DNA of 64,000 nucleotides, taken from NCBI RefSeq assembly GCF_034258515.1, contig NZ_CP139438.1, forward strand, positions 310,001 through 374,000. Direction: 5' to 3'. A program made the position numbers and the translations under genes. The DNA is from Pseudarthrobacter oxydans. Its GTDB lineage: Bacteria > Actinomycetota > Actinomycetes > Actinomycetales > Micrococcaceae. Below, piece after piece: positions 52,636 through 57,652 of the stretch; the first letter of the stretch is position 1, and every line of letters begins with the position of its first letter. A model generated the notes under the pieces. That model saw only the letters and a program-made list of their open reading frames with translations, was not told where the DNA came from and did no database searches.

Positions 52636-55128
<2,493 letters not shown>

Positions 55129-55139
55129 TCTCGACAGCC

Positions 55140-55175
55140 AAAGCCCCGCCACTCCGCAAGGAGCGGCGGGGCTTT
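55140..55175 (+). terminator. Rho-independent terminator of clpC
   Basis: 16-bp stem (55140-55155 and 55160-55175) with one mismatch and a GCAA loop. The 3' arm ends in CTTT. Confidence 0.8.
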
Positions 55176-55242
55176 CGCTTTGCCCTCGGTCCCGTCAAAG
55201 TGTTGGCATCCGGCGGTCACCCGTGGCTAAGTCGCTGCGGCA

Positions 55243-55306
55243 CCGGAGTCATTTGCCGCTTGCTGCTCCTCCGTCGCGTTGACGCAAGCTACACAAATGA
55301 CCCCGG
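55243..55306 (-). repeat. Structured hairpin element, copy 1 (minus-strand sense)
   Basis: Read on the minus strand: outer stem GTCATTTG/CAAATGAC, extended by about five pairs including one G-T. Then an asymmetric internal loop TGTA/GG, a six-bp inner stem GCTTGC/GCAAGC, and a 20-nt apical loop GTCAACGCGACGGAGGAGCA. The same layout and loop occur in copy 2 on the other strand. Confidence 0.7.
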
Positions 55307-55343
55307 CCCCTCCGCTTCGCGTGAGGCGCGCCTATGCACGAGG

Positions 55344-55421
55344 CGACGGACATCAGGCATTTATGTAGGCGCCGTCAAAGCGAGGAACGAGCAGGCGCCG
55401 GGAAATGTCTGATGGTCGTCG
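55344..55421 (+). repeat. Structured hairpin element, copy 2 (plus-strand sense)
   Basis: Read on the plus strand: 19-position outer stem (55344-55362 with 55403-55421; two G-T pairs, one mismatch) ending in CATTT/AAATG. Then internal loop ATGTA/GGG, inner stem GGCGCC/GGCGCC (55368-55373 and 55394-55399), and a 20-nt apical loop GTCAAAGCGAGGAACGAGCA. The loop matches copy 1 at 16 of 20 positions. Confidence 0.7.
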
Positions 55422-55528
55422 CCGGAGCGGACCCGGGCGCCCTGCCCCCCTTTGAACTTGAGCGCCGGCGTCGTTCCGCGGGTAGGTAGCGGTTTGTGAT
55501 GTGGGACACGGTCGGGTTGAATCGGGGC

Positions 55529-57652
55529 ATGGCTAACTTGGAACCGGCGATCCCGGATGAGCGACCTTTGACCCCTTTTCATGATTTGGACCATTATTTG
55601 TCAATCCCGCGGGTAAGTGGCCTCGCCCTGAGCCCGGACGGCACCCGGCTGGTCACTACCGTGGCCACCCTGAACGGGAAAGGCACCGAATTCGGTACCG
55701 CCCTGTGGGAGCTGGATCCCGCGGGGCAAAAGCACGCCCGGCGGATCACCCGCAGCGCCAAGGGTGAGGCGGGGGCGGCGTTCGCTGCCAATGGGGACGT
55801 CTATTTCACCTCCGCGCGGCCGGACCCGGACAGCCCCGAGGAGGAGCCCGTCAAGGCGCTCTGGCTGCTTCCCGCGGACGGCGGCGAAGCCCGCGTGGTG
55901 TTGAACCGGGCCGGCGGAGTGGGCGCCGTGCTGACGGCCCGGAACGCCGACGCCGCCTTCGTGACCGCGGAGGTCCTGGCCGGTTCCGCCGACGAAGAGG
56001 AGGACGCCGAACGCCGAAAATCGCGGAAGGACCGCAAGGTCTCCGCCATCCTGCACAGTGAATATCCGGTCCGGTACTGGGACGCGGACCTGGGACCGGG
56101 CCAGCCCCGGATCTTCGCGGTTGAGCCCGGCGAAGCACAGGACGGCGGCAAACCGGCAACCGTCGATGCCACCGCGCCGCTGGTCCTGCGGAACCTCACG
56201 CCGGATGCCGGACCCAGGCTGCGGGAGGCGGAAACCGTGGTCAGCCCCGATGGCAAAACCATCTACACGAGCTACACCAAGCCGCTGGCCAAGGCCGACA
56301 GCAGGTCCATCCTGGTGGCCGTGGACGTGGCCTCCGGCAGCACCAAGGTGCTCCTGGACGAGGAGGGCATGAGCTTTTTCCCGGGTCCCGTCAGCCCCGA
56401 CGGCAGCACCCTGGCAGTTGTCAGCGAAAGCGACACCACGCCGCAGGAGGCCCCGCAGGTCAAGCTCCACCTGCTGGACGTAGCCGGGGAAGGCGGAGAC
56501 GCCCCGGGCGGCCTGGTGCCGCTGGCTCACGACTGGGACCGGTGGCCCAAGCCCGCTGCCTGGCTTCCGGACGGGTCCGCCCTCCTGGTCACCGCGGACG
56601 ACGACGGCGCGTCGCCGGTCTTCCGGATCAGCGTCCCCGCCGGCGCGGCTGAAGTAAGTGTCGCCCGGGTGACGCAGGACGCTGCGGCCTACTCCGACGT
56701 CGTGGTTTCGCCGGACGGACGCAGCGCCTACGCCCTGCGGAGCTCCTACGAGTTCCCGCCTGAAGCGGTACGGCTGGACCTGCGGACGGGCGAGGCCACG
56801 CGGCTGCCCGCCCCCGCGGAGCGGCCGGTGCGCCCCGGCAGGCTGGAACGCATCGCTGCGACGGCGGCGGACGGGTCCCGTGTCCCGGCCTACCTCGCGC
56901 TGCCGGAGGGCGCGTCAGCGGAGTCTCCGGCGCCCATGCTCCTGTGGATCCATGGTGGACCGCTCGGGTCCTGGAACGCCTGGACCTGGCGGTGGAACCC
57001 GTGGCTGATGACTGCCAGGGGCTATGCGGTCCTCCTGCCCGACCCTGCGCTCTCCACCGGGTACGGCCAGGCCCACATCCAGCGCGGGTGGGGAGCCTGG
57101 GGCAAAGCACCGTACGCGGACCTGATGGCCGTCACGGACGCCGCGGTCCAGCGGCCCGACCTCGACGCCGGCCGGACCGCCGCCATGGGAGGGTCCTTCG
57201 GCGGCTACATGGCCAACTGGGTGGCAGGGCAGACGGACCGGTTCAGGGCAATCGTGACGCACGCGAGCCTGTGGGCGCTGGACCAGTTCGGCCCCACCAC
57301 GGACGCCTCGCAGTACTGGCTTAAGGAAATGACAGAAGAGATGGCGCTGGACAACTCACCGCACCTTCACGTCGAAAACATCGGCACGCCCATGCTGGTG
57401 ATCCACGGGGACAAGGACTACCGGGTGCCCATCGGCGAGGGGCTGCGGCTTTGGTACGAGCTGCTGTCCAAGTCAAAGCTCGCCGCGGACCAGGACGGGC
57501 AGACGCCGCATCGGTTCCTGTATTTTCCGGACGAGAACCACTGGGTGCTCCAGCCGCAGCATGCAAAGGTCTGGTACCAGGTTGTGGAGTCATTCCTGGC
57601 CAGGAATGTCCTAGGCCAGGACGTGCCACTGCCCGCCGAACTCGGGCTGTAG
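55529..57652 (+). CDS. S9 family peptidase (acylaminoacyl-peptidase/prolyl oligopeptidase type)
   Basis: Cytoplasmic serine peptidase of 707 residues. The N-terminal ~430 residues form a beta-propeller with repeated LSPDGTRL-, VSPDGKT-, VSPDGST- and VSPDGRS-type blades. The C-terminal catalytic domain has GGSFGGYMA (Ser556), the Asp in HGDKDYRVP and the His in PDENHWVL. ATG 55529 is preferred; ATG 55496 is in frame upstream. No signal peptide. A hairpin terminator lies about 70 bases after the stop. Confidence 0.9.
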   Translation: MANLEPAIPDERPLTPFHDLDHYLSIPRVSGLALSPDGTRLVTTVATLNGKGTEFGTALWELDPAGQKHARRITRSAKGEAGAAFAANGDVYFTSARPDPDSPEEEPVKALWLLPADGGEARVVLNRAGGVGAVLTARNADAAFVTAEVLAGSADEEEDAERRKSRKDRKVSAILHSEYPVRYWDADLGPGQPRIFAVEPGEAQDGGKPATVDATAPLVLRNLTPDAGPRLREAETVVSPDGKTIYTSYTKPLAKADSRSILVAVDVASGSTKVLLDEEGMSFFPGPVSPDGSTLAVVSESDTTPQEAPQVKLHLLDVAGEGGDAPGGLVPLAHDWDRWPKPAAWLPDGSALLVTADDDGASPVFRISVPAGAAEVSVARVTQDAAAYSDVVVSPDGRSAYALRSSYEFPPEAVRLDLRTGEATRLPAPAERPVRPGRLERIAATAADGSRVPAYLALPEGASAESPAPMLLWIHGGPLGSWNAWTWRWNPWLMTARGYAVLLPDPALSTGYGQAHIQRGWGAWGKAPYADLMAVTDAAVQRPDLDAGRTAAMGGSFGGYMANWVAGQTDRFRAIVTHASLWALDQFGPTTDASQYWLKEMTEEMALDNSPHLHVENIGTPMLVIHGDKDYRVPIGEGLRLWYELLSKSKLAADQDGQTPHRFLYFPDENHWVLQPQHAKVWYQVVESFLARNVLGQDVPLPAELGL

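Follow-up and report, generated by a model that had tools for sequence, protein, structure and literature searches.

REPs have been divided into two superfamilies, a GTAG type that is accompanied by RAYT transposases and a CGTC type that is not, and both are found close behind ORFs (PMC3733652, in the parts of that paper available to us). In the same partial sources, accounts of REP repeats centre on Proteobacteria and on Y1 transposases (PMC3733652, PMC6006769), Actinobacteridae are credited with no Y1 genes other than those of subclass 1.1 (PMC6006769), and Actinobacteria do not appear among the phyla given for CGTC REPs (PMC3733652). Here we describe an elaborate hairpin family that is carried by nearly a whole actinobacterial genus without a Y1-type enzyme. 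It is a real family with a constrained fold, and it most likely lives as a single-stranded DNA hairpin. Such a family, with identified loci, sites that lack a copy and a precisely defined motif, makes the spread of transposase-less REPs testable. No description of the family was found among open-licence PMC papers; one REP-prediction paper tabulates Arthrobacter livingstonensis with many predicted repeats, which may or may not include it (PMC12306157, as far as the available excerpt goes).

The starting point was a window of 64,000 nt, corresponding to positions 310001-374000 of the 4.44-Mb single-contig genome of Pseudarthrobacter oxydans. A pair of hairpins lies there between a clpC-type gene on the left (ORF at 52636..55128, plus strand; named clpC in an earlier sequence-only reading, and matched by Clp ATPase models only below their cut-offs) and an S9-type peptidase gene on the right (ORF at 55496..57652, plus strand, start taken as 55532; best NCBIfam match Dpp5, below cut-off). 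A terminator-like inverted repeat, recognized by eye at 55139..55174 on the plus strand, follows the clpC-type stop codon and precedes the first hairpin, and by eye it is also seen in homologous gaps devoid of hairpins. Unit 1, of sub-type A, occupies 55238..55309 on the minus strand, with outer limits set by eye and a 64-nt match to our covariance model R1 at 55242-55306 (60.1 bits). Its inner stem P2 (GCTTGC/GCAAGC, arms 55284-55289 and 55258-55263), together with loop J2 and the tip, spans 55258..55289, and the loop GTCAACGCGACGGAGGAGCA (55264-55283, minus strand) holds a mini-hairpin, GC-GA-C[GGA]G-GA-GC. Unit 2, of sub-type A', extends over 55342..55423 on the plus strand (R1 match 55352-55415, 60.7 bits), and has an outer stem of about 20 bp by eye (55342-55362 / 55403-55423), a P2 of GGCGCC/GGCGCC (55368..55399, plus strand; arms 55368-55373 and 55394-55399) and a loop GTCAAAGCGAGGAACGAGCA (55374-55393, plus strand) with the mini-hairpin GC-GA-G[GAA]C-GA-GC at 55380-55392. 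The loop strand of unit 1 folds with -20.7 kcal/mol (z -2.5; 3 of 200 shuffles equally stable) and that of unit 2 with -31.1 kcal/mol (z -4.4; none of 200).

Two hairpins on opposite strands are thus located where the sequence-only reading had placed them, their R1 matches being about 46 nt apart. Four of the six P2 base pairs differ between the units while all six remain paired, and the outer-stem G.T pairs of both hairpins are indeed on the loop strand. The loop, given as 20 nt long, was correct in position and letters but is not open, being folded into a bulge and a mini-hairpin that has a covarying closing pair, two G/A mismatches and, as its cap, a GNA triloop; likewise, the outer stem exists but is longer than had been proposed.

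The unit is, judging from the aligned copies, a hairpin kept on one strand and made up of P1, J1, P2, J2 and a tip, P3; it is non-coding and roughly 70-110 nt long. P1 is a long and variable outer stem (median 19 bp in 146 copies), followed by J1, a small asymmetric internal loop that mostly reads GGCA/AGA, GGAA/GGA, TGTA/GG, GAAA/GT or GGCA/CGA, and by P2, a stem of 6 bp. J2 is again asymmetric, usually with GTCAAA opposite A, more rarely GTCAGA opposite A, or else GTCTAA or GTCCAA opposite GA. P3 either has two G/A mismatches capped by a GNA triloop or is a longer hairpin, tips of 30 to 67 nt replacing the triloop in 19 of 146 copies. Of 100 distinct copies with a short tip, 50 are closed by C-G, 48 by G-C, one by T.G and one by A/A, pair 8-18 is C-G in 94, G-C in five and something else in one, and the triloop is GNA in 99 and the mismatch GA/GA in 98, the search pattern for part of the set having fixed the GA letters and the outer triloop letters, not the closing pair. 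In four loci (L304 1260-1380, L307 3645-3764, L276 5291-5408 and L141 4012-4132) the tip is a longer hairpin of similar sequence containing CCGAGCTTGCGAGG, which resembles a small element inserted in the tip in place of the triloop; related CTTG/CCTG tips occur in genomes G064, G494 and G380.

Compensatory change in the P1/P2 stems is strong, and in the alignments the fold is under clear constraint. In a first register of 30 copies, standard pairs make up 93.8% of 690 cells, and covariation is 0.473 against 0.133 in shuffled alignments (0 of 500 as high), and in a second register of 19 copies the corresponding values are 93.4% of 437 cells and 0.629 against 0.175 (0 of 500), the shuffles leaving the relatedness among copies in place. 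When partner columns are slid by 1-3 positions, pairing falls to 27-52% and 33-47%, respectively. The tip helix alone, in 22 core sequences, gives 0.427 versus 0.082 (0 of 500 shuffles as high); the count of pair changes on both sides was equalled in 86 of 500 shuffles.

The closest described kind of element is the CGTC REP (Di Nocera et al. 2013, PMC3733652), although most of its features, as given in the accessible parts of that paper, are not found in the hairpin family. Both are short intergenic palindromes with stem G.T pairs that lie close behind ORFs and have no dedicated transposase. Moreover, CGTC stands 5' of the tip in 142 of 146 copies (CGTA in the other four), and the tips of eight CGTC REPs from a Novosphingobium plasmid resemble by eye the family tip in having G/A mismatches and a GNA triloop. 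In CGTC REPs the tag is unpaired and at one end; in the hairpin family, however, the C of this motif is the last base of P2, and the motif is not terminal but sits inside the long hairpin formed by P1, J1 and P2. The CGTC REP is described with an 8-9 bp stem starting with AT, a loop of 4-5 and a CCA tail, none of which the family has, while the family's short-tip P3 has two pairs, GA/GA, and one pair plus the triloop, preceded by AAA opposite A. CGTC REP dimers mostly carry their tags outside (HH), whereas close pairs of the hairpin family have the motif sides inside, (-,+) in 44 cases against (+,-) in one; the three Novosphingobium pairs are all (+,-), eight copies being too few for a comparison of orientation. 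Copy number, 1-30 per genome in the hairpin family, is a further difference. A model of the family core, R3, gave 33 matches up to E 10 on 100 kb containing the eight CGTC REPs, none of them a REP; this is a weak test, because R3 is a small model that recovers only three of seven distant relatives at E<0.05. The BIMEs and REPs of E. coli, with PMC2817692 as a partial source, likewise lie between operon genes and behind stop codons, but differ in sequence and fold, have far more copies and are accompanied by TnpA_REP. The family works like a transposase-less REP, and membership in neither REP superfamily has been established.

The sequence-only reading had expected that a family would reveal itself by further copies with stem covariation. 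Model R1, a covariance model of 64 nt built from 24 dissimilar copies (set A2), finds nine copies in the P. oxydans genome and, at E<=1e-3, 1-28 copies per genome in 98 of 101 genomes of the genus; neither a lack of further copies nor stem changes breaking the pairing, the two outcomes named as speaking against a family, was seen when looked for. With laxer filters and E<=0.01, all 30 genomes of one to three contigs were positive, with 2-30 copies. Two genomes of P. oxydans have nine copies each, which correspond by eye from scores and order only.

Searches with the loop pattern gave a compatible picture. In the P. oxydans genome, five sites match without mismatch, all with P2 paired in six of six positions, and allowing one mismatch leaves five matches versus none for a backward-read control; at two mismatches specificity is lost (6 matches versus 12 for the control). 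With one mismatch allowed, the pattern was present in 51 of 99 related genomes, and six matches, with one mismatch each, were obtained from 38 genomes outside the genus, while every one of the exact matches listed is in a genome of the genus. A scan of named genomes yielded at least 117 stretches with the pattern; among the titled records up to L115, the 6/6-paired copies belong to Arthrobacter, Pseudarthrobacter or Paenarthrobacter. None of the 6/6-paired copies was within the 42 stretches of viral DNA with the pattern, and a search of phages and plasmids with the window pair returned no match; a type-B hairpin query gave three short matches, without annotation, in two very large replicons of Arthrobacter sp. 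StoSoilB13. In Rfam, nothing matches the hairpins in the window (E up to 5), and in six loci searched at gathering scores the sole matches were to a glycine riboswitch and to an L31 leader, both away from the hairpins.

Beyond the genus, a few relatives are, by these model matches, present in other actinobacterial families. Across the order (198 genomes), R1 at E<=0.01 picked out 14 genomes, namely six of the genus, G064 (two matches, best E 1.3e-9) and seven weak ones. The latter (E 5.6e-4 to 9e-3) were taken as chance, since in six of the seven the alignments inspected lacked J2, whole stems or several pairs. Across the class (394 genomes, strict filters), six genomes had matches at E<=1e-5, i.e. 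three of the genus, G064, G333 and G380, and a second model was positive in seven of the 394. The distant copies keep the layout and, in several, the exact J1/J2 letters, on stems that are entirely unlike. Of 22 genomes from the family of G333, four are positive with five matches in total, located behind rpmE (with prfA next), infB, atpD (with atpC next), ilvB (with the gene for the small subunit next) and a gene resembling a protease; each of the five has its loop strand antisense to the immediately upstream gene. In G064, one match lies in a convergent gap beside gcvP and the other is sense. As a separate observation, gcvP of G064 and rpmE of G333 have a hairpin at the 3' end and a known RNA switch at the 5' end, these being the glycine riboswitch (L249 1566-1662) and the L31-Actinobacteria leader (L335 1194-1241) mentioned above.

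Copies are dispersed in gene gaps, singly or as inverted pairs, according to the called genes around 180 of them, 168 of which have two clear neighbours. Certain gaps recur: those behind gcvT, glyA and ABC-F genes, those around clpC/S9/GNAT, and a small number besides. The 3'-side neighbour presents its stop codon to the hairpin in 123 of 177 cases, 72 of them at a distance of no more than 60 nt. Where a stop codon lies within 80 nt, the 3' side of the match faces it in 84 matches and the 5' side in 18, or 19 versus 6 when counted by distinct genes (sign test, p 0.015). Of 131 hairpins in tandem gaps, 86 have an antisense loop strand; for single copies in such gaps the ratio is 38 antisense to 10 sense, but only 11 to 5 by distinct gene pairs. 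The inverted arrangement of the window recurs as well: among 53 pairs of neighbouring hairpins less than 600 bp apart, 44 are (-,+), six (+,+), two (-,-) and one (+,-), and by distinct gaps and order (n=22) the counts are 15, 4, 2 and 1, respectively. Many copies are single, unpaired with another hairpin. A possible bias with respect to the replication strand was set aside, as it assumed that contigs start at the origin and was confounded with gene strand.

Copies are also gained, lost and swapped among species at one and the same gap, as read from aligned gap sequences. The gap behind the S9 peptidase gene was compared in 30 genomes with that gene, both gene ends being found in 28; seven of these gaps are short and hairpin-free (19-46 bp), 14 contain model matches (113-474 bp) and seven are longer without a match, two of which (L308 and L315) were read as remnants of a hairpin pair. 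Two close relatives (L306 and L309) carry different sub-types on opposite strands in this same gap. On the peptidase tree, the seven gap states, assigned by eye, take no fewer than 14 changes, against a mean of 16.8 when shuffled (3 of 200 shuffles equally low). By eye, L311 and L307 show apparent losses in the clpC-S9 gap that leave the ends of the outer stem. In L255 the hairpins behind glyA and gcvT are near-identical, and in L256 two neighbouring gaps hold the same inverted pair, which suggests copying inside a genome. In this comparison of presence and absence at the level of species, no target duplication was established and no active transposition was seen, and no mobilising gene for the family was found.

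A comparison of G.T with A.C pairs, made separately for copies in each orientation, is a general approach to finding the strand of a palindrome on which selection acts. On the loop strand, 136 distinct outer stems contain 208 G.T, 65 A.C and 2,101 Watson-Crick pairs, and this excess of G.T over A.C marks the loop strand as the apparent folding strand, as the sequence-only reading had proposed. By orientation, the G.T:A.C ratio is 96:35 in antisense, 67:7 in sense, 34:18 in convergent and 4:1 in divergent copies. By distinct gaps, G.T exceeds A.C in 11 antisense cases versus 3 (p 0.057), in 9 sense cases versus 0 (p 0.004) and in 9 of the rest versus 3 (p 0.15). The loop strand therefore seems, on these counts, to fold even where it is not transcribed, the antisense class being borderline by distinct gaps. 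The excess of G.T in antisense copies suggests a folding strand that is independent of transcription, which favours single-stranded DNA. Between the earlier alternatives of a structured RNA and a single-stranded DNA hairpin, placement and strand statistics favour DNA, short of proof.

Our preferred reading, to which we give a probability of about 0.52, is an actinobacterial REP-like element family that an enzyme other than a Y1 (RAYT-type) transposase would copy in the form of a single-stranded DNA hairpin. A protein may recognise the folded strand via J1, J2 and P3, and the stem, once placed, would mostly be tolerated and perhaps be useful as a 3' hairpin of the preceding gene. This REP-like reading is favoured by the presence in 98 of 101 genomes, the covariation, the tip pair with its GNA triloop, the dispersal, the conservation of J1/J2 in distant copies, and the placement close behind ORFs, as described for REPs (PMC3733652, in the part available). 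It is weakened by the results on mobilising genes, target duplication and active transposition, by the nine and nine copies within one species, by the lack of matches on phages and the restriction of plasmid matches to two very large Arthrobacter replicons, and by the modest counts by distinct gaps for the antisense G.T excess (11:3, p 0.057) and for single tandem copies (11:5). That copies keep appearing in the same few gaps (gcv operon, clpC/S9/GNAT) would fit a function in cis as well. A wider form of the preferred reading, which we regard as less likely than not, would have a class of single-stranded hairpins in Actinomycetes, beyond one genus, copied behind genes with a strand preference by a non-Y1 enzyme that reads the two asymmetric loops and the G/A-mismatch, GNA-capped tip. 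That the hairpins are classical REPIN or REP doublets moved by a RAYT (Y1) enzyme, the surmise of the sequence-only reading, is very improbable. REPINs and GTAG REPs, in the available parts of their descriptions (PMC3116915, PMC6006769, PMC8266576), are likewise inverted doublets with a spacer, form single-strand hairpins with unpaired features, and are dispersed and non-autonomous; the family shares with them inverted pairs, an intergenic position behind genes and, in some sub-types, GTAG. But they have GTAG and a Y1 enzyme, and membership fails on both counts. Y1_Tnp (PF01797) is unmatched in the P. oxydans genome and matched in only one of 101 genomes of the genus (positive in 5 of 14 control genomes), yet 98 of the 101 have hairpins. 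GTAG beside the inner stem, taken earlier as a REP mark, is unconserved, other sub-types having GGCA-G, GGAA-G or GAAA-G; a GTAG/GTGG tetranucleotide at the foot is absent, and (T)GTA-G is found inside the hairpin, where the 5' letters of J1 are GGCA, GGAA, TGTA, GAAA or others. The sole genome of the genus with Y1_Tnp, G032 (two matches; L333, L334), has just two hairpin copies.

Among explanations without mobile DNA, a structured RNA, in which the loop strand would serve as a regulatory or protein-binding motif of transcripts (antisense ones that enter a gene at its 3' end, or leaders of the following gene), deserves the most attention, even if we hold it unlikely. The elaborate conserved internal loops, compensatory change and loop-strand G.T pairs are what such an RNA would show, the G.T excess is strongest in sense copies (67:7), and hairpins recur in gaps of the gcv operon and near clpC; against this stand the antisense loop strand in 86 of 131 tandem-gap hairpins, the switch of orientation and sub-type within one gap among close relatives and the lack of an Rfam match. 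That the mRNA strand is the active one, as a terminator or 3'-protecting hairpin of the preceding gene, with the loop letters as leftovers, is improbable. Of the copies with a 3'-side neighbour, 72 of 177 start 0-60 nt after a stop codon and the mRNA strand of the two window hairpins folds well too (-16.2 and -23.3 kcal/mol), but wobbles point to the opposite strand (96:35 among antisense copies), where alone the GNA triloop and G/A mismatches make sense, and a separate terminator-like repeat already precedes the hairpins in the window. Somewhat more doubtful still is covariation without function. Long palindromes are corrected by template switching, and replication could thereby keep long quasi-palindromes paired in the absence of selection, as would suit stems whose sequence varies freely and losses that by eye resemble palindrome deletions (L311, L307). 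Template switching does not account for J1, J2 and G/A mismatches that stay unpaired (GA/GA in 98 of 100, with letters fixed by the pattern for part of the set), for the G.T/A.C asymmetry, or for distant genomes that retain J1/J2 with unrelated stems.

A few further arrangements were noted around individual copies. In G105, locus L295 (2793-3534) contains a tandem array of four long-tip hairpins, all pointing one way and spaced by about 217 nt. A second short repeat, approximately AAGTGAGAGAGCGTCGG and sometimes in tandem, lies 5' of the hairpin at 6174 in L243 (G000:C1:3801000-3811000) and also in the 5' flanks of copies at L049, L253, L257, L286 and L294; the exact string GTGAGAGAGCG occurs three times in L243 and zero times in the window and five other P. 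oxydans loci. Finally, L247 (G000:C1:850000-859000), which is separate from the gcv operon at 3.80 Mb, has by eye another gcvT-like gene, once more with a hairpin behind it, and an L-serine ammonia-lyase-like gene comes next.
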